Assembly: GCA_021799405.1 (NCBI GenBank)
Contig: JAJZAL010000073.1
Location: 6,128-20,577, forward strand
Source: Acidobacteriota bacterium
GTDB lineage: Bacteria; Acidobacteriota; Terriglobia; Terriglobales; Acidobacteriaceae
DNA: 14,450 bases
Direction: 5' to 3'
Below the pieces are notes generated by a model. That model searched no databases. It was given only the letters and a program-made list of their open reading frames with translations, and had not been told where the DNA came from. The position numbers were made by a program, and so were the translations under genes. The stretch's first letter is position 1, and every line of letters begins with the position of its first letter. This document shows positions 1 through 14,450 of this stretch, piece after piece.

Positions 1-118
1 CGGTGAAACGAACAGCTCAAACTACCAGACTCACTCAGAAGAATGGTTTGTTCAACGAACACCTTGTGTCCTGAGTCTGACGTTCCTTGAACAGAAACAC
101 GGCCAAGAGGGTTGGAAG

Positions 119-169
119 CTTGCGACAGGAAGAGCCTCTTCTGGGTTCTTCGACTCCGTTTGTCGCAAG
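119..169. repeat. Inverted repeat with nested palindrome in intergenic DNA
   Basis: Perfect 9-base arms CTTGCGACA (119-127) and TGTCGCAAG (161-169) are separated by 33 bases, and the spacer holds a second palindrome, GAAGAG-C-CTCTTC (129-141). It lies downstream of the LysR gene stop. No T-run follows on either strand, so it is not a typical intrinsic terminator. The rest of bases 1-234 shows no gene. It may be a dispersed intergenic repeat or a structured transcript end. Confidence 0.35.
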
Positions 170-234
170 AAACCTCGCCAAACTCTACTCAGGATGACAG
201 GCCAACTCATACAACGAACTTCTAGAACAGGACA

Positions 235-1119
235 CTAGATGAGCTCTCGTCTCGGGCGGGAACGCAGGTAAGTGCCCACCAACTCTTCTGTGATTTCGGC
301 GAACCGCACGGCGTTCGGAGCCCGAAGGCCGCGTCTGCGATGCAGCGTGATGGGAATGTTCCCTAGTGGGGGGAGGCCCAGCTCGATAATTTGCACGTCC
401 GTCGGCAGGCCAAGCTCGGCCCGCGAGGTCAATCCCAGACCAGCACTAACGGCGGCCCATACCCCCGTTAAACTCGGGCTGGTCATTGCCACGCGCCAGG
501 AGCGTCCAACACTTTCCAATGCGTCCAGTCCGGGTATCTGACATCCGCATGGGGGGTTGAAGAGAGCGAGCGGTAGAGGCTGCCTTGGACGATCTCTAAA
601 GCTGGGGCTCGCAATCCAGTGCAACGGAAGCTCGGTCAACAGTTGTGCCGTCTTCTTTTGTGCACCGCCTAGTGTCAAGACAAGGTCAAGTTCGCCGGAG
701 TCGACCGCTTGCAGGAGTACTTGGCCTAGGTCGACCGTCACCTCAAGTTTTACAAGTGGATAGAGCGCGTTGAACCGCGCAATGACCAGAGGTAATACGT
801 TACTCGTGAAATCTTGACCAAATCCAATTCGAACGACGCCTGCAAGAGACGATCCACGCAGAGTATCCACCATCTCATCATTGAGCTCTAGCACCCTCCG
901 GGCATATCGGAGAGCAATCTCTCCCTGCTCAGTAAGAATCATCTTCCGGCCTTGCTTCCGAAAGAGCGAGACGCCGATCTCCTCCTGCAGTCGCTTCATC
1001 TGCAAGCTGACAGCGGAGGGAGTTCGTAAAAGCCGTTCCGCAGCACGCCCAAAACCACCCAGGTCTTGGGTGGCCACCAAGGTTCGAAGACTGTCCAGAC
1101 TGAGGTTATTCAAAAGCAT
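235..1119 (-). CDS. LysR-family transcriptional regulator
   Basis: A 294-residue protein of normal LysR length. The N-terminal winged helix-turn-helix (about residues 5-65) has the usual pattern: a first helix with LRTLVATQDLGGFGRAAERL, a recognition region around TPSAVSLQMKRLQEEIGVSLF, and the hinge RKMILTEQGEIAL. Residues from about 90 on, beginning VVRIGFGQDF, form the periplasmic-binding-protein-like effector domain. The family binds DNA as tetramers and responds to small molecules; the ligand here is unknown. The gene is divergent from two alpha/beta hydrolases and a membrane protein, so those are its likely targets. The ATG at 1117-1119 gives the standard LysR N-terminus, though its Shine-Dalgarno (GAGAA) is weak. 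An imperfect dyad lies just upstream and may be its own operator. Confidence 0.93.
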   Translation of the reverse strand: MLLNNLSLDSLRTLVATQDLGGFGRAAERLLRTPSAVSLQMKRLQEEIGVSLFRKQGRKMILTEQGEIALRYARRVLELNDEMVDTLRGSSLAGVVRIGFGQDFTSNVLPLVIARFNALYPLVKLEVTVDLGQVLLQAVDSGELDLVLTLGGAQKKTAQLLTELPLHWIASPSFRDRPRQPLPLALFNPPCGCQIPGLDALESVGRSWRVAMTSPSLTGVWAAVSAGLGLTSRAELGLPTDVQIIELGLPPLGNIPITLHRRRGLRAPNAVRFAEITEELVGTYLRSRPRRELI

Positions 1120-1129
1120 AGTTTAGACA

Positions 1130-1150
1130 TTCTCAACGATAGTGTTAGAA
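1130..1150. promoter_or_regulatory. Possible LysR operator (imperfect dyad)
   Basis: TTCTCAAC and GTTAGAA flank six bases, forming a dyad with one unpaired base, centred about 20 bases upstream of the LysR start codon in the divergent spacer. LysR proteins commonly bind a dyad here to repress themselves and activate the divergent gene. I did not find the canonical T-N11-A spacing within it, so the assignment rests on position and symmetry. Confidence 0.3.
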
Positions 1151-1314
1151 GTTCTCGCTTTTAGTGATCTTCTCTCATCCATATGCTCCATAGTAGCGCA
1201 CCTTGCGGTCGGACTGCGACTCGGTCTTTAAGTCAGCGATGCTAACCAGTCTGATCGCTTAGAGGATCCAGCAGCGGCTCAGCAAGGGCGTGCCAGCTCG
1301 GCGAAAGGTTACTT

Positions 1315-2016
1315 ATGAAAACTATTCCTTCCAATGCAACGATCGTTCTGGTGCATGCCGCATGGGCGGATGCATCCTCGTGGTCTGCTGTAATCGGCCC
1401 ACTCCTCAAGGCGGGCGTCAAGGTGATCGCTGCCCAGATTCCAATGACTTCGCTGTCCGATGATGTTGCTGCGTTGAAAGTGGCCCTCGAAAGAGCGGGC
1501 GCAGGGCCAATCCTCCTCGTCTCCCACTCCTACTCCGGAGGTGTGATCACCGCTCTCGATGGTGATGATCGCATCCGAGGTCTCGCCTATGTAGCCGCTA
1601 TGCCGCCTGCAGAAGGCGAGACGGTGGGAGACCTTTTCTTCCGTGAGGCTCCCCATGAGATGGCCCCCCATCTGGAACCCGACGTACATGGTCTGTTATG
1701 GATGTCGGAGGAAGGCATGAACAATGCGGTCGCCCACCGAGCCACGGCGGAACAAAACGCAATCGCAACAGCAGCGCAACGCCCAATCACGATGAAGTGT
1801 CTTGGCGAGACAATACAGACTCCCGCATGGAGGTCGAAACCTTCATGGTATCTGCTGGCCGAAGACGACCGCATGTTCAGCCCGAAGACACAACGTTTCG
1901 TCGCCGAGCGTATGAGCGCCGAGATCCGTTCGTACAATGTAGATCATGCCCCTCACATTTCAGAACCAGCCCTCGTCGTAAGGTTCTTGCTGGACGCAGC
2001 CAGCGCGTTGCTCTAA
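1315..2016 (+). CDS. Alpha/beta hydrolase, serine esterase type
   Basis: A 233-residue single-domain alpha/beta hydrolase. Visible features are strand beta3 leading to the oxyanion segment LVHAAWADASSW (residues 12-23), the nucleophile elbow S-H-S-Y-S-G with Ser72 as likely nucleophile, an acidic residue in AEDDR (Asp184 or 185), and His211 in DHAPH near the C-terminus. The short cap and HAAWADASSW segment resemble the subgroup of small soluble esterases that includes pyrethroid- and hydroxynitrile-lyase-like proteins; the substrate cannot be told. There is no signal peptide, so it is probably cytoplasmic. The start ATG is preceded by AAAGG six bases upstream. It is the first gene of a probable three-gene operon (52-base gap to the next gene) divergent from the LysR regulator, whose inducer may be related to its substrate. 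Confidence 0.88.
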   Translation: MKTIPSNATIVLVHAAWADASSWSAVIGPLLKAGVKVIAAQIPMTSLSDDVAALKVALERAGAGPILLVSHSYSGGVITALDGDDRIRGLAYVAAMPPAEGETVGDLFFREAPHEMAPHLEPDVHGLLWMSEEGMNNAVAHRATAEQNAIATAAQRPITMKCLGETIQTPAWRSKPSWYLLAEDDRMFSPKTQRFVAERMSAEIRSYNVDHAPHISEPALVVRFLLDAASALL

Positions 2017-2068
2017 GCGATACGTTATCTCGCGTGCCATCAATTGAACGAACGCTACGGAGAATCAC

Positions 2069-2944
2069 ATGACCACATACCACCACGCCCGCATTCAAGG
2101 CCGTAAGATCTTCTACCGCGAAGCCGGGGCGACCACAAACCCGACAATCGTCCTGCTTCACGGTTTTCCGTCATCATCACACATGTTCCGCGAGCTGATC
2201 CCCTTGCTCGCCGACCACTTCCACGTTGTCGCGCCGGATTACCTCGGCTTTGGCTACAGCGATGCTCCACCGGCGGCTGACTTCCAATACACCTTCGACA
2301 ATATAACCGCGCAGATTCAAGAGTTACTCTTCACGACGATGGGTTTGAAGAAGTTCAGCATCTACGTCCAGGATTACGGCGCACCCGTTGGTTTTCGCAT
2401 TGCCTCGCGCCATCCGGAGACGATTGAAGGGATCGTCGTACAGAATGGTAACGCCTACATGGAAGGCATCAGCGCTGCTTTCGACCCGCTCCAGCCATTC
2501 TGGACGAATCGCAACGAGGAGACGGAAAAGGCTCCGCGGTCTCTCTTGACTAAAGAGACGACGATCTTCCAGTACACGCATGGTGCTAAAAACTCGGCTG
2601 CTGTGAGCCCGGACAGTTACACCTTCGACCAGGCGCTGCTGGATCGCCCTGGCAATGATGCAATTCAACTCGACCTCTTTCACAACTACACCTCGAACGT
2701 GGCGCTCTACGACACGTGGCACGAGTATTTCCGCAAACACCAACCCCGAACGCTGATCGTCTGGGGACAGAACGATCCCTTCTTCATCGCTCCAGGAGCG
2801 CAGGCGTTCTTGCGTGACCTGCCCAAGGCGGAACTGCATCTTATCGACGGTGGCCACTTCCTCCTGGAAGAGCACAGCGAGCTTGTCGCAGACAAGATCA
2901 TTGCCTTTCTGGTAAAGGGAAATAAGGCGGAGGTGGTCAAATGA
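2069..2944 (+). CDS. Alpha/beta hydrolase, epoxide hydrolase/haloalkane dehalogenase-like
   Basis: A 291-residue alpha/beta hydrolase whose nucleophile elbow carries aspartate rather than serine: VQDYGAP, Asp102. This is the arrangement of soluble epoxide hydrolases and haloalkane dehalogenases, which form an alkyl-enzyme ester on Asp. The oxyanion motif is HGFPSSSHMF (31-40), the acid is probably Asp236 in WGQNDPF, and the base is His263 in DGGHF. Haloalkane dehalogenases usually have Trp right after the nucleophile to bind halide; here it is Tyr103, which argues against a classical dehalogenase. A cap domain lies roughly at residues 130-210. GGAG seven bases before the ATG is a good ribosome site. 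The stop overlaps the next gene by ATGA, so translation is likely coupled. Confidence 0.88.
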   Translation: MTTYHHARIQGRKIFYREAGATTNPTIVLLHGFPSSSHMFRELIPLLADHFHVVAPDYLGFGYSDAPPAADFQYTFDNITAQIQELLFTTMGLKKFSIYVQDYGAPVGFRIASRHPETIEGIVVQNGNAYMEGISAAFDPLQPFWTNRNEETEKAPRSLLTKETTIFQYTHGAKNSAAVSPDSYTFDQALLDRPGNDAIQLDLFHNYTSNVALYDTWHEYFRKHQPRTLIVWGQNDPFFIAPGAQAFLRDLPKAELHLIDGGHFLLEEHSELVADKIIAFLVKGNKAEVVK

Positions 2945-3453
2945 ATTTCTCCGCCATCAACCCGCCCGACGGAAATAAGCCGCGGGTGGCAGCTCGGACC
3001 TTGCACATCTCTCGGGCCATCCTTTACGCCACCCTGGTGGTAGGAGCGCTTGATGCAACCGACGGTGTCATTTTCCTCGGCCTGCAGGGTCAAAACCCGA
3101 TCCATGTGCTTCAGTACATCGCGAGCGGTCTGCTGGGCACACGATCCTTCTCAGGCGGCCTAGCAACTGCGGGACTTGGACTCGCGGTGCATTTCGCCGT
3201 TTCGCTGGCCGTTGCAGCGATCTATATTTTTGCAAGTCGGCGCGTGGCTGTGCTGCGTACGAAGTGGGTGCTCATGGGTCTGCTGTACGGCGCTGGAGTG
3301 TGGGCGGTCATGAACTTGCTGTTGTTGCCGCTCACTGCAACCGCACACGGCCCGATTGCAATCGCGGCGATAGTCAACGGCCTCGTAGGTCACGCTTTGT
3401 TCGTCGGCCTGCCGTCCGCATACTTTGCGAAGGACGTGGAGATCATCGAATGA
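2941..3453 (+). CDS. Small four-helix integral membrane protein
   Basis: A 170-residue protein with about four hydrophobic segments: roughly residues 25-48, 75-98, 109-133 and 138-161. A short cytoplasmic-looking N-terminus rich in Pro, Asn and Arg precedes the first helix. Several polar residues sit inside the membrane segments, including His near residue 83, Asn in VMNLLLLP and a C-terminal NGLVGHALFVGLP stretch. I cannot assign a function; the shape recalls DUF1440/YagU-like proteins, but that is an impression only. The start ATG overlaps the stop of the upstream hydrolase (ATGA at 2941-2944) and has a GGAGG eight bases upstream inside that gene, so the two are translationally coupled. In this context it might handle a substrate or product of the hydrolases. 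Confidence 0.8.
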   Translation: MNFSAINPPDGNKPRVAARTLHISRAILYATLVVGALDATDGVIFLGLQGQNPIHVLQYIASGLLGTRSFSGGLATAGLGLAVHFAVSLAVAAIYIFASRRVAVLRTKWVLMGLLYGAGVWAVMNLLLLPLTATAHGPIAIAAIVNGLVGHALFVGLPSAYFAKDVEIIE

Positions 3454-3512
3454 GCGGCCTTTCGACATAGCAATCGATGGCAGTGCTGGCATTTGCAGTA
3501 TGAGAGGTGGTC

Positions 3513-3683
3513 ATGGCGGAGACGCCTCGCCTGGTCGACGACCTTCGAGCGACATTGCGTACTGTACGAGACCGATGTGACCGACCCGGCTCTCCGTCTC
3601 TTTCGCAGCGTATCGGCTCATTTGAATTGCGTTTGTCGGAAACTCAGAGACTGCTGCCGGGGGGCACGTCAAGCATCTCTTAA
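3513..3683 (+). CDS. Possible small protein (56 aa), unknown
   Basis: This 56-codon frame lies in an otherwise gene-poor gap (3454-3737). It starts with ATG preceded by GAGAGGTGG about two bases upstream, a strong but unusually close ribosome site. The product is polar and helix-prone, rich in Arg, Leu and Ser, with no cysteine pair or membrane segment. I do not recognise a family. It could equally be a remnant or a chance frame. Nothing else is visible in the gap. Confidence 0.25.
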   Translation: MAETPRLVDDLRATLRTVRDRCDRPGSPSLSQRIGSFELRLSETQRLLPGGTSSIS

Positions 3684-3737
3684 TTGGCAAGGCATCTGAG
3701 TTCAAGCCACTTGGAGCTTTAGCCTAAAGGTGAAGGA

Positions 3738-4070
3738 CTATGATATGGGGAGTACCAACGCCAGCACCTCAACGCGATTTTCGTCCATGACGCTGACCAG
3801 CATCTCAAGGATGAACAGCAGGTCACGCTTGAGCAACCGAACGGGAACGGCGGCGCTCACGGCGGCGAGGACACGGAGGCCGGTCGTGTTGGCGATGGCC
3901 TGTTCCTTGCGCTGCTTGTCCTGCTCGGCCTTCCACTTCTCCTCGTTGCGGCGGGTTGGCTGCTTCGGACGATGGACGGGGCAGGTCAGATTGGTACATA
4001 CCTTATGAATGGTGCCAACGTCGTTGCCTTCAGTGATGATGGCCTCGGTGGTGAACTTGCACGACCTCAT
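3738..4070 (-). pseudogene. ParB-like protein fragment (internal piece, both ends missing)
   Basis: About 100 codons on the minus strand encode a cysteine-bearing segment, HKVCTNLTCPVHRPKQ, then a charged helix (EEKWKAEQDKQRKEQAIANTTGLRV) and a helix with VPVRLLKRDLLFILEMLV. I recognise this as the middle-to-C-terminal part of ParB/Spo0J-like partition proteins of acidobacterial plasmids and islands, where the CxxxxCPVH segment precedes such helices; this is from memory, without a search. The N-terminal ParB nuclease/CTP-binding and helix-turn-helix domains are absent, and similarity appears to end after VEVLA, before the usual C-terminus. The right end abuts the recombinase fragment head-on near 4058-4068. 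It has no convincing start, and is best read as debris of a partition locus. Confidence 0.6.
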
Positions 4071-4743
4071 GCGCCAGAGCGCGAAGAGAGAGCGCGTTCC
4101 TGATGTTCTCGAACTCAGAGAACTTCAGCTTCTTCTCACCAAGCTCGACACGCGCGAACGCACACTAGTTCTGTTGGCTGCTGCCACGGGACTACGCGTA
4201 AGCGAGTTGCTAGGGATTCGATGGGCGGATGTGGACTTCGATAGCCTTGAACTCCGTGTGACTCGATCCATCTGGCATCAGAGGATCGGGGATTGCAAGA
4301 CCGAAGCCTCGGCCAGGCCGGTTCCACTCGACGGCTACATGGCGGAAGACCTGCTTCAATGGCAGAAGAAAAGTCCCTATCCGATGCAAGAAGATTGGGT
4401 CTTCGCCAGCCCGACCATCAAGGGGGAACAACCCTATTGGCCGGACAACCTCATGAAGCGGTACATCAAGCCGGTCGCCAAGGCGAACGGCATTTATAAG
4501 AACATCGGCTGGCACACTTTCCGCCACACCTTCGGCACACTGCTGAAGGCCAACGGGGAAGATGTGAAGACGGTACAGGAGCTTTTACGGCACGCCAACA
4601 GCAGGATCACACTGGATGTCTATACGCAGGCAGTGGGTTCCAATAAGCGGGCCGCGCAAAGCAAGGTTGTAAAAATGATGATTTCTGGCGTGGGTCAGAA
4701 CACGATTAAGATGGACCCGCAAAAAGCTCGAATCGGAACCTAA
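4009..4743 (+). pseudogene. Tyrosine recombinase (phage-type integrase), N-terminally truncated
   Basis: The frame encodes a complete tyrosine recombinase catalytic domain. The active-site set is visible: Arg63 in ATGLRVSELL, Lys97, His169 and Arg172 in HTFRHTF, His195 in LLRHANSRIT and nucleophile Tyr205 in DVYTQ. Family members are about 350-420 residues, with arm-binding and core-binding (SAM-like) domains first. Here only the last remnant of the core-binding linker (RQSAKRER, residues 22-29) remains. The first 20 or so residues are a chance reading of the opposite strand of the ParB-like fragment, so the junction lies at about 4058-4068. No clear ribosome site precedes the ATG at 4009; ATG 4069 is another candidate. 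The protein could not bind its core site normally and is probably inactive. Its stop lies 70 bases before a tRNA 3' remnant, which fits a former integration site. Confidence 0.85.
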
Positions 4744-4811: not shown

Positions 4812-4813
4812 TA

Positions 4814-4858
4814 TGGCGGGGACGACGGGGCTCGAACCCGCGACCTCTGCCGTGACAG
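4814..4858 (-). other. tRNA-Asp 3' half remnant; likely attachment site
   Basis: Read on the minus strand, bases 4858 to 4814 give an anticodon loop CTGTCAC (anticodon GTC), the 3' anticodon strand GGCAG, variable loop AGGTC, a T-arm with loop TTCGAGC between GCGGG and CCCGT, a 3' acceptor strand CGTCCCC, discriminator G and CCA. G73 and anticodon GTC point to tRNA-Asp. Bases beyond 4858 cannot pair with the anticodon strand, and no D-arm or 5' acceptor strand follows, so this is not a working tRNA. A tRNA 3' half just behind a tyrosine recombinase gene is the classic product of site-specific integration. Confidence 0.75.
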
Positions 4859-5086
4859 CCGGTTGGAAACCCATAACTTATTGAAATCAGGGGGAATGGA
4901 TGGCCACTTTCGGAGCCCTGAGACACGCTGGAGAACCCTTATCGGACCCTTAACGGACCCGCGACCTCTGCCCAGCAAACCTCTGCCCACACCCTCTCGA
5001 CGACCGATGTTTGCACTATTGTTGCGACAAAATCTCGACCTCTGCCCGGTAAACTTCTGCCTGCGTTCTGCAGAGGTCGTGGGTCC
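4836..5086. repeat. Repeats of the tRNA-derived core ACCCGCGACCTCTGCC
   Basis: ACCCGCGACCTCTGCC appears inside the tRNA remnant at 4836-4851 and again, perfectly, at 4957-4972. A shorter copy, TCGACCTCTGCCC, is at 5035-5047, and AACCTCTGCCC is near 4978-4988. An inverted copy at 5068-5086 reads, on the minus strand, GGACCCACGACCTCTGC, differing in one base from GGACCCGCGACCTCTGC at 4955-4971. Because the unit equals the anticodon-stem to T-stem part of the tRNA, these look like stacked att-core copies. The 4744-5187 stretch holds no gene I can support. Confidence 0.6.
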
Positions 5087-5187: not shown

Positions 5188-5204
5188 CATCTAAACTTTA
5201 GATG
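5188..5204. promoter_or_regulatory. Operator-like palindrome in front of the HTH-PIN operon
   Basis: CATCTAAA and TTTAGATG are perfect 8-base arms around one C. The element ends where the GGAGG ribosome site of the HTH gene (5204-5208) begins, so a bound protein would block transcription or ribosome access. Toxin-antitoxin operons are usually autorepressed through such palindromes, and the first gene encodes a DNA-binding protein. It also covers the upstream ATG at 5202, supporting the start at 5217. Confidence 0.5.
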
Positions 5205-5216
5205 GAGGTGGCGGAT

Positions 5217-5783
5217 ATGCGGACAGTTCAGCTCAAACTTCGGGAGGCGAGCGCGGTGCTCGGCGTCTCGCCCAAGGATCTCCAGAACCTGGTCCAGTTC
5301 GGCGTATTGCAGCCACAGCGGAAGGATCGGTTCTTTGTCTTCGACCGGGCGCTGCTTCTGGAGGCGAAGGTTGCCTTTTATCTCAAGGAGTCGCTCGGAA
5401 CATCTGTGCCGTTGCTGGCGCGGTTTACAAGGGAGATTTTCAAGGACGCAGACCGGGCAAAGCCGGGGCGCGTTTCCAACGTTTCGATTCTCTCGCGGCC
5501 GACAAGAGGGAAAGAAGTGGTCAAGATCGAAATCCCGCTTCAAGCGCTCTCCAAGGAACTGGATGCCCAGCTTCCGGCCGCGGAGTCCCTCGGCAAGGAA
5601 GCTAACGGCCGGAAGCGGGAGAATTGGAAGACGGAGATTACCCGCGTTTTTGAAGCGGCGGCAGGCGATCTGGAAGGCACGACCGAACGCGAGATCCTGG
5701 ATGAGATCAAACGGTATCGTGCCGAGCGAAAGAAGACACCGGAGATCAGCGTCATTGCCCTACCCCAGGAAAAGACGGCCTAG
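5217..5783 (+). CDS. MerR-like HTH protein, probable antitoxin partner of the PIN toxin
   Basis: A 188-residue protein. The N-terminal 50 or so residues (LREASAVLGVSPKDLQNLVQFGVLQPQ...FVFDRALLLEAKVAFYLKE) look like a MerR/excisionase-type helix-turn-helix. The middle is basic and mixed, and the C-terminus (TEREILDEIKRYRAERKKT) is a charged helix of the kind that often wraps a toxin partner. GGAGG at 5204-5208, eight bases upstream, supports ATG 5217; an in-frame ATG at 5202 has no ribosome site and lies within a palindrome. Its last 29 bases overlap the PIN gene, so the two are probably co-translated. The antitoxin role is inferred from this coupling, DNA-binding domain and operator-like palindrome; the protein itself is not a recognised antitoxin family. 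Confidence 0.75.
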   Translation: MRTVQLKLREASAVLGVSPKDLQNLVQFGVLQPQRKDRFFVFDRALLLEAKVAFYLKESLGTSVPLLARFTREIFKDADRAKPGRVSNVSILSRPTRGKEVVKIEIPLQALSKELDAQLPAAESLGKEANGRKRENWKTEITRVFEAAAGDLEGTTEREILDEIKRYRAERKKTPEISVIALPQEKTA

Positions 5784-6210
5784 AGGCGTTGTCGATACTT
5801 CGGTCCTTGTGGCGGGAATCGCCGCCTTCAGGCAACTTGGCGCTCAGTCTCCCGTACCGAGCGCCAAGTTCTTACGGGACTGGATCGAAAACGATACCTT
5901 CCTCTGGCTCATCAACGAAGCGATCGTAGAAGAATACAGAGAGATTCTTGCGCGCCGCGGTGTCCGTCCTCATCACGTCGGTACAGCCATCAACTTGATC
6001 CGCGAGCAGGCGGAAGAGGTTCCGGACATCGCAGGCCGTGACATTTCTCCAGACCCGGATGATGAGCCGTTCTGTACCTGCGCCGAGGCGGGCAAGGCCG
6101 ATTTTATCGTCACGCTGAATCCCGGCGATTTTCCTCAGCAGCGGCTTCGTGCCCATGTCATTCTTCCCGGCGAACCAGTTCCGACGACGGCCCGAACGCG
6201 GTCAGGCTGA
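5755..6210 (+). CDS. PIN-domain protein, putative toxin (COG1569-like)
   Basis: About 151 residues. PIN domains are Mg-dependent ribonucleases, and many are VapC-type toxins cutting tRNA or mRNA. The acidic set is visible: Asp14 in VVDTSVLVAG, Glu59 or Glu60 in NEAIVEEYREIL, Asp100 and Asp103 in SPDPDDEPF, and the terminal IVTLNPGDFP, where Asn stands at the usual fourth acidic position, as is common in this subfamily. The first PIN residues begin soon after the upstream stop, so the start is internal to the HTH gene: TTG 5755 with GGAG ten bases upstream fits best; GTG 5719 and ATG 5701 are alternatives. The gene overlaps the HTH gene by 29 bases and runs tail-to-tail into the AbiEi-like gene, overlapping it by 53 bases. 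Confidence 0.82.
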   Translation: MPYPRKRRPRGVVDTSVLVAGIAAFRQLGAQSPVPSAKFLRDWIENDTFLWLINEAIVEEYREILARRGVRPHHVGTAINLIREQAEEVPDIAGRDISPDPDDEPFCTCAEAGKADFIVTLNPGDFPQQRLRAHVILPGEPVPTTARTRSG

Positions 6211-7794: not shown

Positions 7795-8141
7795 ACTGGC
7801 GACACTCTTCACGCTCCCAGGATCGCCTTGAAAAGACAATCGTACAGCAGCACGAAAAACGCGTGCTGGCTGGCGACGTTGTCCCGGTAGGCTCATGCCC
7901 AGACGAGGATTTCCTTTGGCTGCTCGCGCGACGGTCTTCCCGGATCGCGCTAACAGACCCCAGGGTCGATCACGCTGCGAGCTGCCCAAAGTGCATGGAG
8001 CGGCTGATTGCACTGCGCCAGGAATATCGCCGCCGGCGCCGGATGTGGATCATCACGGGGCTGATTGTCGCACTTCTACTGGTGTTCGCTACCGTGTTGA
8101 TAATTTATAAGTGCCTGCTTCCCCATAAGCTTTCTACATAA
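7785..8141 (+). CDS. Single-pass membrane protein with HxxxCxxC motif, putative anti-sigma factor
   Basis: A 118-residue protein. Residues 1-80 are polar and contain His63-x3-Cys67-x2-Cys70 (DHAASCPKC), the signature of zinc-binding anti-sigma domains. A basic stretch RRRRR (82-86) is followed by a transmembrane helix at 87-108, leaving about ten residues outside; the positive-inside rule puts the motif domain in the cytoplasm, where it could hold a sigma factor at the membrane. ATG 7785 has GGAG ten bases upstream and overlaps the ancestral stop of the sigma-like gene (7792-7794), indicating translational coupling. The anti-sigma role is inferred from the motif, topology and neighbour. Its end overlaps the convergent helicase gene by eight bases. 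It appears intact even though its partner is interrupted. Confidence 0.65.
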   Translation: MRLNWRHSSRSQDRLEKTIVQQHEKRVLAGDVVPVGSCPDEDFLWLLARRSSRIALTDPRVDHAASCPKCMERLIALRQEYRRRRRMWIITGLIVALLLVFATVLIIYKCLLPHKLST

Positions 8142-10218
8142 CTGATCGCTTGGGTTTCAGGTCGTCCAAAAATTCAGAAGCAGGTTCGGTGCTGGTCACG
8201 AGCAAATGGTCGCGGGCGCGGGTGCAGGCGACGTAGAGGAGATGGCGCTCCGTGTTGTAGACATCCTCAAGATCGGATTCGTCCGTGACAGTCTCGATTC
8301 GTTCCTGAAGCGGAATCACCTCGTCATCACACGCCATCAGGCCCACCGCCCGGAACTCCAGTCCCTTTGCCAAGTGCATCGTACTTACGGACAGGTAGCC
8401 GGAAGTCGTCTCAACATGCTCGTCGAGAATCTTGTACTTCATCTCTGCCCGTACGGCTGCGGCCCTGGCGCGGTCAAGCTGAGCGGCGGAGCGGACGAAG
8501 AGCGCGATCTCGTGCGGTTGTATTCCACTCTTGAGCAGTTGGGTCAACCAATCCGCGACAGCTTTGATCTCCTCATCCGTAGACGGGTAAGTTTTGATGT
8601 CCGGCTGCGGCCCATTGAAGAGCGAGACCGTCCCCCTGCGTTCCTCAAGGTTTCCGTCAACATCCGCTATTTGCGGCTCCAGCAAGCGGTCGGCCTGCGA
8701 GCGAATCTGGTGCGATGTCCGGTAATTGATCTTGAGGCTCGTCGATCGACCGCGCACATCCACTCCCGCAGTCTTCCATGAGAACGGCTGCTGGAAGATG
8801 CGCTGGCCAAGATCGCCGGCAAAGAAGAGGCCATTGGGTCGTCCTGCACCAATGGCTGCGAGGAACCTGACCTGGGCGATGCTGATGTCCTGCGCCTCAT
8901 CGACGACTGCGAAGTCGAACGGTGCGGATGCGCCAGCGGCATAGTGCCGCGCGAGCACGTTGAACATTCCTGAAGTCGTCAGCAATCCCTGCTCCCGCAA
9001 TCCAGAGCGAACCTTCTCGAAGATCGACCACAGCAGTTGCCGTTGGGGTTCCTTCAAGCGCGTCTTCCGCCCAAGCCGAACAACGTCCCGGTAGTCCTCC
9101 CAACTCTCCAACTGCCAGCCATCGACCACCTGCTCCCATTCCGTAGTCAGAAATTGCAGTGAGAACTTGTGCCCGCCCACCGCCTGGGAAGCCTGTTCCA
9201 TCAACTCACGCACCACGGCGCTCGACGCGATATGCAGCTTCCCAAGGTTCAACTCATAGAGCCGTCGCCCAATCGCATCCATCGAGTAGACTTCGATCCG
9301 TTCGCCCAGTCGCGGCTCGCTGTGCAGCAGCAGTCGCAACTTGGCGCGCAGCGCGTTTGCCAGCGGCTCAGAAAACGTCGTCAGCAACACACGCGCCTGC
9401 GGATTCGAGCGCGCCAGGTGCGCGGCGCGGTGCAACGCCACGATGGTCTTGCCTGTCCCCGCCGTGCCTGCCACCCGCGCCGGTCCATTGAAGTTCTTCT
9501 CCACCAGCTTGCGCTGCGCTGGGTGCAGAAACACCGCCCAGCGCTCCCACGGGTAGTCGAGCGCCAACGCCAGCTCTTCGACGTTCTTCATCACGCGGAA
9601 GCGGCGCAGCGCGTCCGGGTGCTCGAAGGGATCGCCACCTGCGGGCGCAACCTCAGCCAACGGGGGCCGTATGCCCGTGGCCAGATTCAGCAATGCCTCG
9701 GCGGCTTCGCCTGGCAGATGGCCTGCAATTTCGAGCAGCGTGTCCTCGGTTGCGTTCAGCGCGTCGGCTACCCACTCCGGCGGCACACCGTAGGAAAGTA
9801 GCGTCCCCTCAGAGATGCCCTGCAGCACGCGCGGCTTCGTGACAGGATGCTCCACCTCCACGTACTTCGGAACGGTGATCTCCTGCACGCGCTCGCGTAC
9901 CTCGACCAGTTGCGCCGCGCCGGTCTTCGGGTGCGTCTCCAGCCGTCGGCGCTCTGCCCACTGATAGGCATCATCGTGGTGGGCAACGTAGCAGAGCAGC
10001 AGGCTGGTGCCCGTGCGATGCACAATCATGCGCAGATCGCGGCTCACGCGGATCGACCAGAAGTTGTGGTCCTTGGCCTTGTCCAGCTTGTGCAGTTGCA
10101 GTCCGGGATTGGCCGGATTCACTTGCAGATCAAACGTGGCCGTCTTTGCGGCCTTCTGCTCCTCGCTGGTCAGGCGGGCCAGGCTGTCCGTAAATGTGTC
10201 GGCAATTCGGAACTCCAT
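8134..10218 (-). CDS. SF1 (UvrD/Rep-like) helicase with N-terminal RelE/ParE-like domain
   Basis: A 694-residue protein. Residues 1-95 look like a RelE/ParE toxin fold: FTDSLARLTSEEQKAAKTATFDLQ helices, then WSIRVSRDLRMIVHRTG and LLLCYVAHHDDAYQWAERRR strands. A linker follows, then a superfamily 1A helicase: Walker A GTAGTGKT (251-258), motif II DEAQD (440-444), motif III FAGDLGQRI, motif IV INYRTS, motif V STMHLAKGLEF and motif VI YVACTRARDHL, all intact. The C-terminal nuclease of RecB/AddA types is absent. ATG 10218 with GGTGGA six bases upstream is preferred over 10272, which would lie inside the preceding gene. It starts 19 bases after the DUF6946-like gene and is probably co-transcribed with it and the restriction-modification genes. 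Whether the toxin-fold domain still cleaves RNA or only binds is unknown. Confidence 0.88.
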   Translation of the reverse strand: MEFRIADTFTDSLARLTSEEQKAAKTATFDLQVNPANPGLQLHKLDKAKDHNFWSIRVSRDLRMIVHRTGTSLLLCYVAHHDDAYQWAERRRLETHPKTGAAQLVEVRERVQEITVPKYVEVEHPVTKPRVLQGISEGTLLSYGVPPEWVADALNATEDTLLEIAGHLPGEAAEALLNLATGIRPPLAEVAPAGGDPFEHPDALRRFRVMKNVEELALALDYPWERWAVFLHPAQRKLVEKNFNGPARVAGTAGTGKTIVALHRAAHLARSNPQARVLLTTFSEPLANALRAKLRLLLHSEPRLGERIEVYSMDAIGRRLYELNLGKLHIASSAVVRELMEQASQAVGGHKFSLQFLTTEWEQVVDGWQLESWEDYRDVVRLGRKTRLKEPQRQLLWSIFEKVRSGLREQGLLTTSGMFNVLARHYAAGASAPFDFAVVDEAQDISIAQVRFLAAIGAGRPNGLFFAGDLGQRIFQQPFSWKTAGVDVRGRSTSLKINYRTSHQIRSQADRLLEPQIADVDGNLEERRGTVSLFNGPQPDIKTYPSTDEEIKAVADWLTQLLKSGIQPHEIALFVRSAAQLDRARAAAVRAEMKYKILDEHVETTSGYLSVSTMHLAKGLEFRAVGLMACDDEVIPLQERIETVTDESDLEDVYNTERHLLYVACTRARDHLLVTSTEPASEFLDDLKPKRSVM

Positions 10219-10237
10219 CTTCGATCCACCAAAAATA

Positions 10238-10963
10238 TCAGGCAACAGATGCAACCTCTGTATCCGTTGCAAATGGGCAATCAGCCCAACCTATTCCAAG
10301 GCGAATGTCGCCGGCATTGACAATCTGCATCTGCCCGCGGACCGCGTTTACACCCACCGCGCTGCATAGCCGAGAAAACATCTGGAAGCTTTCCCCCGGG
10401 GCTGCAAATGCTTGAACGACTAACGCAGCGTTTGGCGCTCTGAATCGTTTCGCCTCGATGACACCAGCAGCGCACCTGTGCAACAACTGATATGGCACAT
10501 CCTTATAGTGGTCGAAATCGACGAGGGGGAGGTTCTCGCTGATGTACCTCCATCGGGCGGCACGATTCGATTTCGATTTGTCTGACTTGCCCGCGTCGAG
10601 CCAATGTTCAAGCGATTCGTTGTCTGCGCCGAAGGGCTCGTTCGCCTTGGCTTCAACAGAAAGTGAGAGCAAGCCTGCGGTCGTATCCAGGAGTGCCCAG
10701 ACGTCGCACTGAGAATCTGCCTGTCCACCAGGTAGAGGTACCTTGTGTTCGGCGATAGCGAGCAGGAGCGCACCTTCGCCAAAGACGCTATTGCGGAATA
10801 ATGCGCCGATTGGCTCCGGCAGTCCGGCAGGGTTGCTAGACGCCCCCTCCCATGCAACGGCAGTCTCAAATGCGGAATAACCCCGCCTCCATTGGCTATC
10901 TGGCTTCACCAGGCGTTCACGCCAGCTACAAATGCCTCGTGTTTCTGTACAAAGCAAATTCAT
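10238..10963 (-). CDS. DUF6946-like protein, possible PD-(D/E)XK nuclease
   Basis: A 241-residue soluble protein. I recognise a DUF6946-like pattern: CDVWALL...LLSLSVEAKANEPFG (86-111), a charged segment, then YQLLHRCAAGVIEAKRF and a C-terminal FSRLCSAVGV. The spacing Asp87 ... Glu104-Ala-Lys106, the latter two on a hydrophobic strand (LLSLSVEAK), matches the D-x(n)-E-x-K layout of PD-(D/E)XK nucleases, with an upstream Glu (Glu63 or Glu72) in the first helix. Nuclease activity is inferred only from this. The start ATG overlaps the methyltransferase stop (ATGA), and the stop is 19 bases from the helicase start, so it sits inside the restriction-modification operon. Its place suggests a role in the same defence function, either DNA cleavage or helicase partnering. 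Confidence 0.65.
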   Translation of the reverse strand: MNLLCTETRGICSWRERLVKPDSQWRRGYSAFETAVAWEGASSNPAGLPEPIGALFRNSVFGEGALLLAIAEHKVPLPGGQADSQCDVWALLDTTAGLLSLSVEAKANEPFGADNESLEHWLDAGKSDKSKSNRAARWRYISENLPLVDFDHYKDVPYQLLHRCAAGVIEAKRFRAPNAALVVQAFAAPGESFQMFSRLCSAVGVNAVRGQMQIVNAGDIRLGIGWADCPFATDTEVASVA

Positions 10964-12663
10964 ACTCTAAACACCTTCATCACCTCATCGCCAAGGTGGT
11001 TGATAACTTTGACGGCGATGCGTCCTGACTCCGGCTTGTCGAAGGGACGCGAGGTGTCGCTGTGCAGCGACTCCCATGCCTCTTCATTGATCTCGGCCTT
11101 CAACGTTGTCTTCAGCGACCTGTAGGGATCGTTCGCGCCCAGGAAGTAGGCGTGGCGCACGAAGAAGCTCTCCTCATTGTAGTCCGTGTCCAGGAACCAG
11201 CAGGCAATCTCGTCCGGGCCATTGCTGCGCACCTCGCCGGTGCTGGGGTGGAAGACATCCACGCCGCGCACCTTCACCTGCAACTTGCCGTCGGCAAGGT
11301 TCAGAATCTCGATGTCCGGTTCGCCGAAGATGACAAACAGGTTGCCTTTGCCGGTGTTCTTTAGGTCGGCGGCCATGTGCAGGTCGGCGTTCATGCGGGC
11401 CTTCAGCACGGGGATGCGGCCCAGCTTGTTGAAGTCGGCGGAGTGCGCATCGTAGCTGAAGGCGCAGGCGATCAGCACGTCAAAGGCGGCGTCGCCGGCC
11501 TCGCGGGCGGCGGCCACCAGGTCTTCGCGGGTCACGGTGCCAAACTCCGGGCCGATGAAGATGCCGGCACGCTTCTCGCTGCCATCAGTTTCACTGTAGC
11601 GGCCCTCGGCGCAGATGTAGTTGCCCGGCCACGGCGCCAGCGAGGTGAAGGTGATCTTGTCTTCCTTGTGCGCCTGCTGCACGCCGCTGGTCTTCAGGTT
11701 GTCGAGGATGATCTGGACGAAGTTTTTTGCGTCGCGGGTGTCGGCATCGGCGCGGCCAGGGGTTTCGATCAGGTCTTCGTTCTCGTCCACGGCCAGCACG
11801 CGATGCGGTGACAGGCTCTCCACAGTGAAGGGGCCGGCGACGCGGACCTTCTTCTTGTCGTCGTAGGGCTTGTCGTAGAGATACTCGAAGTCGGCCTTGG
11901 CGGCGATGGAGGCGTCAATGGCCTTCTGGCGCGCGATGCGCTGCTCCCAGAACTGTGCATGCAGCGGCTTGGCCGCGGCGGGCCAGTCGGCAGGAAACTC
12001 GCGCGGAATCTCCCACTCCTGGATTGCATCGGAGACGGGTGCGGTGTACTTCTGCGCCTTGCGGCAATCGGCGAGCCAGTTCTTCGGCAGCAATGCGGTC
12101 AACTGTTCGCGCAGCGGCAGCAGCCGAGATTCATAGTCCTCCCAGATCACGTCGATTTCGGCGTTGTTCGCGATGTGGCCTAACTTTACGTGGGGAAGAC
12201 GCTCACATACAAATCCGTGGCGGATGTTCCTGTGGGTCTGCGCGTTAGAGGGAACCTTGCCCTGTAACTCTGCCTCTTTGATCTGCCCTTCGGGACTATC
12301 GGCAAGCAGATAGTAGGGGTAGCGCGTGCCCATAATGCGCGCACGCGCGAGGGCCAATGATACGCGCGATGTGTCGATGGTGATCCAGCGGCGGCCCCAT
12401 TGTTCTGCTACATACGCCGTAGTGCCAGAGCCGCACGTTGGGTCTAAAACCAGATCGCCTGGGCTCGTTGCAAGCTGTATGCAGCGTTCGATAACCTTGG
12501 TATTGGTCTGAACTACATATACTTTCTCTTCAGTGAAGTTGCCTGTTCCAGTGTCCGTCCAGATGTTGCCATGCACCCCAGCATCAAAATCGGTATGGAA
12601 TCGAACATACTGAATCGAGTTTTCCGCGACGTGAAGGCGATTGGCACGCGCGAGCCGTTCCAT
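10960..12663 (-). CDS. Type III-like DNA methyltransferase (Mod), C-terminal part after frameshift
   Basis: 567 codons continuing the methyltransferase in the next frame. The start of this piece (MERLARANRLHVAEN) is the normal continuation of the target region, followed by GNIWTDTGTGNFTEEKVYVVQTN and the AdoMet-binding motif I, LVLDPTCGSGTTAYVAEQWG (72-91), with motif II residues in WITIDTSRVSLALAR. About 450 further residues form a large C-terminal region ending KVINHLGDEVMKVFRV, which looks complete. No good ribosome site precedes ATG 12663, so the piece is unlikely to be an independent gene. Its stop overlaps the DUF6946-like gene by ATGA. On its own it lacks the DPPY catalytic motif, so without restored reading frame the enzyme should not methylate DNA. 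Confidence 0.85.
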   Translation of the reverse strand: MERLARANRLHVAENSIQYVRFHTDFDAGVHGNIWTDTGTGNFTEEKVYVVQTNTKVIERCIQLATSPGDLVLDPTCGSGTTAYVAEQWGRRWITIDTSRVSLALARARIMGTRYPYYLLADSPEGQIKEAELQGKVPSNAQTHRNIRHGFVCERLPHVKLGHIANNAEIDVIWEDYESRLLPLREQLTALLPKNWLADCRKAQKYTAPVSDAIQEWEIPREFPADWPAAAKPLHAQFWEQRIARQKAIDASIAAKADFEYLYDKPYDDKKKVRVAGPFTVESLSPHRVLAVDENEDLIETPGRADADTRDAKNFVQIILDNLKTSGVQQAHKEDKITFTSLAPWPGNYICAEGRYSETDGSEKRAGIFIGPEFGTVTREDLVAAAREAGDAAFDVLIACAFSYDAHSADFNKLGRIPVLKARMNADLHMAADLKNTGKGNLFVIFGEPDIEILNLADGKLQVKVRGVDVFHPSTGEVRSNGPDEIACWFLDTDYNEESFFVRHAYFLGANDPYRSLKTTLKAEINEEAWESLHSDTSRPFDKPESGRIAVKVINHLGDEVMKVFRV

Positions 12664-13826
12664 CCATCTGGATAGTTTGCCTTCCAGTGAGAATTCTTTT
12701 CCCAGCTTTCGTAATCCTTACCACGAAACCAGAATGGCTGCGGCTCTTTGGGCCTGCCTTGAGATAGGATGTTGTCCGGCTTATAAGGCCGCGCACCCTC
12801 CGGTATCTGGACCTCCCCTCTCTTTTCCTTGGCTGACACCCCGCGATAGGACCAATCGCCAAGCATCAACCATTTAGCATTTCCTTCGCCAATTTCGAAC
12901 TCTTTTCGATAGAACGGTGGATTTGATCTTGCGGCAGACTTGTTCTTTGCATACCAGACGATAAAGTCTGACATATTACCCAGAAAATTTGCCTCAAAAC
13001 CTGTTGTTGTCTGAACGGAAATGAGGCTGAGGAAGTTTTGATCTCCAAATACCTCATCCAGAAGAGATCTCACCAGATGGACATTTTCATCGCCAATCTG
13101 CACGAAAATGGAGCCCGAATCTGAGAGGAGATCACGGGCGACTGTGAGCCGGTCTCGCAAATAGGTCAGATAAGAATGGATTCCATCTCGCCAGATATCG
13201 CGGAACGCCTTCACCTGCTCCGGTTCGCGCGTGATGTGATCGACGTTGCCGTCCTTCACATCACGGCTGGTCGTTGACCATTGGAAATTCGAGTTGAACT
13301 TGATCCCATAGGGCGGGTCAATATAAATGCACTGCACCTTGCCGCGCAGCCCTTCGCGCTCGGCTAAGGACGCCATCACTTGCAGGCTGTCCCCGAGAAT
13401 CATCCGGTTCGACCAGTGGGCATCGTGCTGGTAGAACTCCGTCCGTGCCTCCGCGCTGGGCAGGCCGTTGAAGTCGGCAAAGAGATCGAATTGTGGGGCC
13501 GTTGCCTCTTTGCTCGCCTGCGTCTGCCGCTGCAGGTCGTCGATCAGCACCTTGGGGTGGACCTTCTCCTGAATGTAGAGCGGCGGCGCGGCTACCACCA
13601 GATCGGACCAGTCCTGCTCGTCCTTGCCGCGCCAGACCAGTTGCGGGTCAAGATCACGATTCCTTCGCTCGTACGCCACGCGAATGGGCGAGAGCTCCTC
13701 GGCGCGCATGACGGACTGATACTCCGCCGTGGGAATGTTCTTGCGCGAGGCCTCGTCGTGGAGGAGGGTTTCGACGATCTTCTTCGGCTTGTCTGTTCCG
13801 CGTTTCGTGGGTGTCGTTCTGGCCAT
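12513..13826 (-). CDS. Type III-like DNA methyltransferase (Mod), N-terminal part, frameshifted
   Basis: A 437-codon frame of which the first 387 are methyltransferase and the last 50 (after NYPDGW) are out-of-frame tail. It carries the amino-methyltransferase catalytic motif IV DPPY (residues 170-173, CIYIDPPYGIKF), preceded by NRMILGDSLQVMASL, and the FVQIGDENVHLVRSLLDEVFG segment. DPPY before motif I is the beta-class order typical of type III Mod subunits. The restored protein would be about 955 residues, longer than classical Mod (about 600-700). Expected sequence at the break is ...PDG-MERLA...; the DNA reads GATGG|ATGGAACGG, one base short between 12664 and 12663. AAGGAAG upstream supports ATG 13826, which lies 14 bases after the Res stop. 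Confidence 0.88.
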   Translation of the reverse strand: MARTTPTKRGTDKPKKIVETLLHDEASRKNIPTAEYQSVMRAEELSPIRVAYERRNRDLDPQLVWRGKDEQDWSDLVVAAPPLYIQEKVHPKVLIDDLQRQTQASKEATAPQFDLFADFNGLPSAEARTEFYQHDAHWSNRMILGDSLQVMASLAEREGLRGKVQCIYIDPPYGIKFNSNFQWSTTSRDVKDGNVDHITREPEQVKAFRDIWRDGIHSYLTYLRDRLTVARDLLSDSGSIFVQIGDENVHLVRSLLDEVFGDQNFLSLISVQTTTGFEANFLGNMSDFIVWYAKNKSAARSNPPFYRKEFEIGEGNAKWLMLGDWSYRGVSAKEKRGEVQIPEGARPYKPDNILSQGRPKEPQPFWFRGKDYESWEKNSHWKANYPDGWNGSRVPIAFTSRKTRFSMFDSIPILMLGCMATSGRTLEQATSLKRKYM

Positions 13827-13840
13827 GATTCTTCCTTTTT

Positions 13841-14450
13841 CTATGCAGGCTGCGCGGGCCGGGGCTGGGTGACGGAGTCCACCACGCGGCAGAACTCGGA
13901 TTCAACTTTGGCGGCGAAGTCGGCCTCCATGCCGAAGACCTCAGTAAACTCCGCAAAGGCCCAGCGCCCAAACTGGCTGCTGGCGTTGACGCCGGGAATC
14001 CAATAGGTCTCCATGGCGAGCTTTTTGTCTTTGGCGTCTTCGCGGCGGTAGCCCTTGACCTCGACCACCAGATGCAGCAGGTCGTCTTCGCCGTGGCCGT
14101 CCTCCACCAGAACGATGAAGTCGGGCCGGTAGACGTGGCTCCCTGAGCCTTGGCGATAGGGCACGTCGAAGCCGAGGTTGTGGTTCTTGACGTAGGCGCG
14201 CACGCGGGGATGATTCTCTGCCACGCGGCAGAACTCAGCCTCCCAGTCGCTGTCGAGGATGACCCAATTGATGTGGCAGCGGCGCGAATCCGTCTGCCAC
14301 CGGCTGGTTTTGGACGTGGTGAAGTTGACGTGACCTGTGGAGCCGACGGGATTGTAGGGATCGAGCAGCACCTTGACGGAGGCGCGGCCAGCGGAATCGG
14401 AGTTGATGGCGGCGGTGATGCGCTCGCAGGCCATGTCGGCAAGGTTGCGG
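13841..14450 (-). CDS. Type III-like restriction enzyme (Res) C-terminus, continues beyond the window
   Basis: About 202 C-terminal residues; the frame stays open through the right edge, so the helicase part lies outside. The visible part is the nuclease domain. WEAEFCRVAENHPRVRAYVKNHNLGFDVPY leads to RPDFIVLVEDG and LLHLVVEVKGYRREDAKDKK, giving Pro-Asp, then Glu-Val-Lys 19 residues later: the PD-(D/E)XK site found in Res subunits. TYWIPGVN...GRWAFAEFTEVFGME follows, then a short tail. I recall a restriction family labelled BPTD_3080 with this ending, but cannot check it. The stop at 13841 is 14 bases before the methyltransferase start, as in res-mod operons. In type III systems Res translocates or slides on DNA and cuts when recruited by Mod at unmethylated sites. 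Confidence 0.82.
   Translation of the reverse strand, partial: RNLADMACERITAAINSDSAGRASVKVLLDPYNPVGSTGHVNFTTSKTSRWQTDSRRCHINWVILDSDWEAEFCRVAENHPRVRAYVKNHNLGFDVPYRQGSGSHVYRPDFIVLVEDGHGEDDLLHLVVEVKGYRREDAKDKKLAMETYWIPGVNASSQFGRWAFAEFTEVFGMEADFAAKVESEFCRVVDSVTQPRPAQPA

Follow-up and report, generated by a model that had tools for sequence, protein, structure and literature searches.

We analysed a 14,450-nucleotide stretch of an Acidobacteriota bacterium (contig JAJZAL010000073.1, positions 6,128 to 20,577 of the forward strand; hereafter the window), the minus strand of which carries, in this order, the genes for the endonuclease subunit (Res) and methyltransferase (Mod) of a type III restriction-modification (R-M) system, a DUF6946 protein and a UvrD-type superfamily 1 (SF1) helicase (Table 1; related loci and genomes are denoted by L and G numbers). 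Fourteen bases separate res from mod, the mod and DUF6946 genes overlap in an ATGA, and 19 bases lie between the DUF6946 gene and the helicase gene. All four genes, their order, their common strand and these distances had been proposed in an earlier reading of the same DNA (the original prediction), and the sequence bears them out. As listed, the helicase open reading frame (ORF) runs from a TTG codon (10272-8134); homologues favour the ATG at 10218, and their alignment begins MEFRIADTFTDSL.

Table 1 Features of the R-M operon in the window, with the evidence for each; L014 is the nearest related locus.
Feature	Position	Strand	Evidence
Res, C-terminal part, BPTD_3080 family	14449-13841	minus	NF046055 E 1.6e-62; PF19778 RE_endonuc E 1.7e-06
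Mod frame 1, 437 residues, N-terminal half with DPPY motif	13826-12513	minus	PDLC03632 positions 74-385, E 6.5e-150; PF01555
Mod frame 2, 567 residues, C-terminal half, tail GDEVMKVFRV conserved	12663-10960	minus	PDLC03632 positions 419-983, E 5.3e-253
Mod target-recognition region, no DNA similarity to L014	12468-12999	minus	blastn matches stop at 12467, restart at 13000
DUF6946 protein (cargo), 241 residues, predicted PD-(D/E)XK nuclease	10963-10238	minus	PF22187 E 3.5e-55
Predicted catalytic hairpin of the DUF6946 protein, D87 ... E104-A-K106	10646..10705	minus	120/120 homologues; strands 88-94 and 97-106
Slot content absent from L014, last Mod codons to helicase start	10220..10968	minus	blastn matches stop at 10219, restart at 10969
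Helicase, UvrD-type SF1, third core gene, 694 residues	10218-8134	minus	PF00580 and PF13361; homologue alignment
Helicase N-terminal RelE/HigB-like domain (weak evidence), residues 1-92	9943..10218	minus	PF05015 in 7/120 listed relatives; RelE3 E 0.71

Res and Mod adjoin on one strand, as they do in type III R-M systems. In that kind of system Res combines a superfamily 2 helicase with a C-terminal PD-(D/E)XK domain, and ATP-dependent cleavage requires two unmethylated sites in inverse orientation. The end of the window cuts Res, so that its C-terminus alone is present, and this part scored 212 bits against NF046055, a model whose cut-off of 800 applies to the whole protein. In relatives, ORFs of about 1000 codons that match Res lie upstream of Mod; for one of them, from L018, a sequence search of the PDB found no match. 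Mod is a type III beta-class amino-methyltransferase, the PADLOC model MTase_III (PDLC03632) having matched over both of the frames into which the gene is split near 12.66 kb, be the split genuine or a sequencing error. Since the two frames match successive parts of this one model, the change of frame sits inside the target-recognition region. The Mod of L014 is intact (934 residues) and matches the solved type III Mods 6k0w and EcoP15I 4zcf.

The DUF6946 protein scored 187.1 bits against PF22187, for which the curated cut-off is 27, and its residues D87, E104 and K106, which make up the PD-(D/E)XK residue pattern, are invariant in all 120 aligned homologues and lie where a predicted hairpin begins and ends. 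The passages on this family in Durairaj et al. 2023 (PMC10584680) give it a predicted EndoMS-like PD-(D/E)XK fold, a clan assignment and active-site residues, and call its precise function unknown. A structural model of the window protein, which we also compared using VIA-align, gave no Foldseek match in the PDB at E <= 0.001; the protein had no PADLOC match, and a search of viral contigs with DUF6946 found no relative. We predict from residues and model that this is a PD-(D/E)XK nuclease, in agreement with the published clan assignment, the fold being less firm than the residues. The original label of DUF6946-like putative nuclease is plausible on the published clan and fold assignment, our own model and the three invariant residues.

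The last gene had been described as a RelE-helicase fusion, of which the helicase half is clear from its UvrD-type domains, whereas it is weak evidence that points to a RelE/HigB-like fold for residues 1-92, whose toxin activity is hypothetical. The window helicase had no RelE-type Pfam match at E 0.01. Among 1838 N-terminal relatives, 120 were listed, and 7 of these carry a precomputed match to PF05015, which we take to be a HigB-like toxin family; in the PDB, RelE3 was the sole RelE structure matched by the N-terminus, and weakly so (E 0.71). The full-length helicase model was poor, with a predicted local distance difference test score (pLDDT) of 51. One way to read this domain is as a toxin, serving an abortive response and restrained by the helicase, Mod or the DUF6946 protein as antitoxin. 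The PF05015 matches are consistent with such a role, as are H80, H81, D82, Y85 and W87, which are unchanged in 14/14 aligned sequences, and a table in PMC12654330 in which one marine metagenome-assembled genome (MAG) has HigB-1/DUF6946 entered as a predicted toxin-antitoxin pair, so that neighbouring DUF6946 and HigB-like genes are already on record, with DUF6946 read there as the antitoxin. The weakness of the structural support (the poor model and the single RelE3 match) argues against it, however, as do the 95 of 97 measured Mod-helicase gaps in which the helicase stands without DUF6946, and the nine empty-slot junctions examined, in which Mod and helicase are too close together to accommodate an antitoxin gene. 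A RelE fold may, moreover, serve in nucleic-acid binding alone. We regard the toxin reading as highly improbable.

To place the four genes in context, we searched one genome per species from 84,980 species with the helicase alignment, which yielded 221 relatives; the best 80, which come from many phyla, were kept. A Mod of the same family lay upstream on the same strand at 67 of the 80 loci within the stored DNA, which also held Res in 46, and whole-genome searches added a Mod for L040, L047 (a C-terminus at a contig end) and L071 (a remnant), bringing the count to 70/80. Nine further loci have too little upstream DNA to judge (3.7 kb at L049, less than 1.4 kb at the others), leaving L058, where no Mod was found in the 17 kb before the helicase, as the sole negative among the 80. 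Taken from the other side, the helicase was found 0-5.7 kb downstream of 14 of 20 hand-chosen strong Acidobacteriota Mods, and Mod and helicase were both present at 16/19 loci from a viral collection. Of 44 plasmid records matched, nine were inspected: operons on Gemmobacter and Rhizobium plasmids have an annotated BPTD_3080 restriction endonuclease, a methyltransferase, intervening genes and the helicase; on a Sphingomonas plasmid an annotated restriction endonuclease and the helicase flank a stretch with no listed gene; and those from Phenylobacterium and Shinella are too sparsely annotated to judge. By its sequence, then, the operon is a conserved three-gene core (a BPTD_3080-family Res, a type III Mod and a RelE-like/UvrD helicase) plus cargo. 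The four-gene arrangement exceeds chance, since the core recurs across phyla and the four-gene order is found again in L051 and L054.

The position of the cargo is shown by the nearest relative, L014 (MAG BP9.bin128, Acidobacteria), which has the same operon with a helicase 96% identical in protein sequence. The G001 assembly is probably the same one, and its Mod locus (L095) gave identical matches. Over the operon, blastn aligned L014 to window positions 14348-13000, 12467-10969 and 10219-8158, and only two stretches between 14348 and 8158 were unmatched: the Mod target-recognition region and the stretch with the DUF6946 gene. The slot in L014 is empty, the helicase ATG standing 12 bases past the Mod stop, and its genome had no DUF6946 match. 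The same borders were found in 8/8 pairs, hand-chosen for similar helicases and different gap lengths, in which blastn matches extend along whichever core genes are present, break at the Mod stop and return at the helicase start codon, within about 10 bases. The target-recognition region was also unmatched in those pairs where both members hold most of Mod. Around the region at 12468-12999, which is unrelated in DNA to L014, the sequence on either side is 84-89% identical, and the specificity of Mod has probably changed here by replacement of a segment, as far as the alignment tells.

Exchange of the slot content is evident in L041, L043 and L044, the helicases of which are 89-91% identical in DNA while their slots differ: GmrSD_N, AAA/DUF3696 and NsnC genes in L041, QatABCD in L043, and in L044 a sole ORF above 80 codons, of 186. 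Filled and empty slots were also mapped onto a helicase tree of 94 rows (a quick search with no bootstrap), which left out the near-duplicates L162, L171, L073 and L127 and helicase ORFs of 500 residues or fewer. With gaps of 100-600 bases dropped, 82 rows could be scored, and these required at least 17 changes of state, compared with a mean of 26 (range 20-32) in 200 shuffles, so that slot state is partly inherited yet often changing. DUF6946 occupies the slot at three separate places in this tree; the window and L054 fall in the same clade of 12 rows, separated by empty-slot rows, and L051 lies far off.

Across 97 Mod-helicase gaps, in which duplicates were kept (for example L020 = L127 and L072 = L073 by helicase sequence), 35 were of 100 bases or less, 12 of 100-600 bases and 50 of more than 600, up to a maximum of 7.9 kb. 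L051 was scored empty in the counts of gaps, directions and starts because its DUF6946 reads through from Mod, and is hence outside the 50 filled slots; it was scored filled in the count of changes. A Mod-DUF6946 fusion in L051, suggested by an open frame of 1207 residues, was rejected: the end of Mod leaves its usual frame just before the stop, and the ATGA overlap is still there in the DNA. Within the 50 filled slots, 90/99 ORFs of at least 150 codons were co-directional with the operon, as against 105/198 in the 4 kb that follow the helicase, counted over 71 loci. In 36/50 of these slots, a possible start for a cargo ORF (80 codons or more) lies -20 to +40 bases from the Mod stop, and 11 of those 36 starts overlap the Mod stop or precede it. 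Res and Mod are separated by another, smaller slot, where 31/76 gaps exceed 600 bases; among the 10 ORFs scanned there were GmrSD, Fic, DUF4062/HATPase and AAA_21 genes, and 3/10 were unmatched. Res-Mod cargo was seen at L016, L023, L041, L135 and L165.

These figures bear on the possibility that the operon simply sits in a defence island with randomly gathered genes, so that the Mod-helicase interval is not special and adjacency says nothing about function. In favour of this, defence-rich neighbourhoods do exist, as on the Rhizobium plasmid with Shedu and DarT genes nearby, and the Res-Mod gap carries cargo as well. Against this stand the co-direction inside the slot compared with the DNA downstream, the borders at Mod stop and helicase start in every one of the chosen pairs, and the occurrence of the helicase after Mod across phyla, and we consider random collection very unlikely.

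The slot contents themselves are diverse: by sequence, 76 plus-strand ORFs from the slots of genome loci, each with at least 100 codons, fall into 64 clusters. To identify them we scanned hand-picked ORFs from 24 loci with PADLOC, and after L058 was left out (it has no Mod), 15 of the remaining 23 slots gave a match at E < 1e-30. These were SIR2+HerA (L031, L129), HamA/HamB of Hachiman (L022), QatABCD (L043, L040), IetA/IetS (L060; L061 was tested for IetA alone), a type IIG enzyme (L047), PDC-S68 with HEC-06 (L071), NsnC (L041), PDC-S06 (L032), HEC-01A (L133), PDC-M32A (L124), a Dsr2-like protein (L142) and PD-Lambda-5_A (L029). A Pfam scan of 40 slot ORFs found, among others, GmrSD (L091, with the N-terminal domain in L041) and Schlafen AlbA_2 (L026, L082). 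The slot proteins of L021, L025, L045, L079 and L093, of 261-651 residues, had neither a Pfam nor a PADLOC match (at L025, this refers to the first two genes) and are candidates for undescribed defence genes.

Where DUF6946 itself occurs bears on how closely it is tied to the helicase. Close relatives occupy the slot in the window, L051 and L054, with a broken copy in L188, and the genes nearest to the window's among the genomes examined (those of L051, L054 and L188) all lie inside a Res-Mod-helicase operon; a DUF6946 fragment directly follows the helicase in L029. Any DUF6946 match at all was found in only 7/80 helicase genomes, and in four of these seven it lay away from the helicase. More distant DUF6946 genes are located apart from Mod and helicase, annotated plasmid cases included; G384, a weak DUF6946 match, was outside this neighbourhood comparison. 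One could suppose a single dedicated machine, in which DNA unwound by the helicase at Mod/Res sites is then cut, where exposed, by the DUF6946 nuclease. Tight packing with the ATGA overlap, the recurrent four-gene order, the broken copy and the fragment, and the confinement of the closest DUF6946 genes to the operon would all suit such a machine, which we nevertheless judge to be quite unlikely: the model loses ground because this helicase is also found with a range of unrelated cargoes or with no cargo, and neither the lack of DUF6946 in slot and genome of the nearest relative nor the more distant DUF6946 genes with no adjoining helicase fit it. The original prediction had suggested that both extra genes belong to the same defence function; membership in the R-M operon is supported for the helicase, given the Mod upstream of it in 70/80 loci, but DUF6946 as a dedicated partner is not supported. 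Its suggested neighbourhood check likewise came out divided, the helicase following Mod across phyla while DUF6946 is not fixed there and its distant relatives stand elsewhere; helicase-driven cleavage by DUF6946, as a dedicated pairing, would need to be repeated for every different cargo and is not upheld.

We therefore favour, with a probability of roughly 0.68, the interpretation that the genes form a mobile type III R-M operon whose Mod-helicase interval is an exchangeable slot, which here holds a predicted DUF6946 nuclease as a second layer of defence. The family is marked by a BPTD_3080-type Res, a Mod of about 930-1000 residues and a UvrD-type helicase with a RelE/HigB-like N-terminus. 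Modules in its slot vary by genome, several being complete known anti-phage systems, and lie mostly on the same strand, often starting a few bases from the Mod stop and presumably co-transcribed on the R-M transcript. Most likely, Mod and Res carry out methylation-directed restriction, cutting unmethylated DNA; the helicase processes or unwinds DNA for the R-M complex, acting on DNA ends; and the DUF6946 protein is a self-contained PD-(D/E)XK nuclease, a second layer independent of any one helicase partner. A stronger version, in which the operon evolved as a chassis for exchangeable modules and the helicase, more than an accessory of restriction, couples them to it (it might, for instance, sense that restriction has been blocked or has failed and then license whatever cargo precedes it), seems to us unlikely.

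Several observations weigh against the favoured interpretation. Loci were ranked by their similarity to one helicase and some are duplicated across sets; slot ORFs were taken from stop to stop, with no gene calls; and the PADLOC scan of the slots used hand-picked ORFs, neither it nor the Pfam scan having a random-gene control. Three of the 23 scanned slots (L130, L082, L084) had only weaker PADLOC matches and five (L021, L025, L045, L079, L093) had none. DUF6946 fills only 2/97 Mod-helicase gaps (L051, L054), the others being empty or differently filled, and the clustering of filled and empty states on the tree indicates that exchange is not constant. The helicase is absent after 6/20 of the Acidobacteriota Mods, where the available DNA is less than 0.6 kb at L140, about 4 kb at L135 and about 12-13 kb at the other four, and the viral locus L173 has no Mod despite more than 5 kb upstream (two more Mod-less viral loci have about 1 kb). 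Four distant helicases (32-47% identity; Qipengyuania, Thermus, E. coli and Pseudanabaena) belong to other large systems with no annotated Res/Mod of this kind. Finally, because its Mod is split, the window copy may be inactive.

Three of these distant helicases, L217, L218 and L219 (32-37% identical to that of L014, on Thermus, E. coli and Pseudanabaena plasmids), come after very large DEAD/DEAH helicase genes, so that helicases of this family may also stand at the end of other multi-gene systems. In Thermus and Pseudanabaena, the distant helicase is also preceded by a large DNA methyltransferase.

When compared with known systems, the operon falls under type III R-M. It shares the Res-Mod pair of EcoP15I-like systems, its Mods matching type III models and structures and its Res C-terminus the BPTD_3080 model, but it has a third conserved gene, for a RelE-like/UvrD helicase, on the 3' side of mod and, between its genes, cargo that can be exchanged. 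A third gene has been described in N4-methylcytosine (m4C) type III systems, in which a helicase-like ATPase with superfamily 2 (SF2) motifs, whose function was given as unknown, is found on the 5' side of mod in over 500 genomes (Murray et al. 2021, PMC8259958). In both arrangements res and mod are regularly accompanied by a third gene, for an ATPase or helicase; here, however, the extra gene is of SF1 (UvrD) type and 3' of mod, and no cargo slot was described for the m4C systems. No additional SF2 helicase-like gene 5' of mod was found in the window, which ends within Res. An effector gene inside an R-M locus as a second layer has a parallel in PrrC, nested in the type IC locus EcoprrI, as outlined in a review (PMC12707154); in that account one effector family is found in a type I locus, as opposed to a type III slot with many unrelated and also multi-gene systems, and additional systems have been noted at the E. 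coli type I locus in a passage of PMC10121019. For PF22187, the fold and active-site prediction quoted above (PMC10584680) concerns the same family, and the passages on it give no genomic context, whereas here a sub-clade resides in the slot of an R-M operon. The GajB protein of Gabija is also a UvrD-type helicase, and the window helicase gave partial matches to the PADLOC GajB models (best 1.3e-22), but differs in its N-terminal RelE-like domain and its tie to Res/Mod; the gene preceding it is that for DUF6946, and no GajA was met among the ORFs scanned. Our search of the open-licence literature, with subscription papers and preprints outside it, found no description of the slot or of a UvrD third gene.

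Elsewhere in the window, a phage-type integrase gene (PF00589) lies at 4009-4743, adjoining an apparent transfer RNA (tRNA) 3' end on the minus strand at about 4812-4870, where ARAGORN found no whole tRNA near the integrase. In L014 the helicase is followed by a comparable element (5515-5691; about 180 bases, 79% identity), and the operon may therefore move as an integrative island. The chromosomal flank at window 4-3764 is 93% identical to contig 7 of G001, which continues with about 890 extra bases and then a match to window 3760-4065; the island beyond is unmatched on contig 7, and the R-M operon of G001 is on a different contig from this flank. Between integrase and helicase (5202-6210) lie a weak MerR-type gene and an overlapping PIN-domain frame (PF13470), which, from domain content, look like a toxin-antitoxin pair.

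Should the favoured interpretation be correct, it would describe a widespread family of type III operons with a fixed internal site at which complete, unrelated anti-phage systems are swapped, and would provide a rule for finding new defence genes, namely to inspect the interval between this Mod and this helicase. It would also make it testable which of the two, helicase or restriction complex, has control of the cargo, and would give an anti-phage context to DUF6946, until now a predicted nuclease of unknown role.

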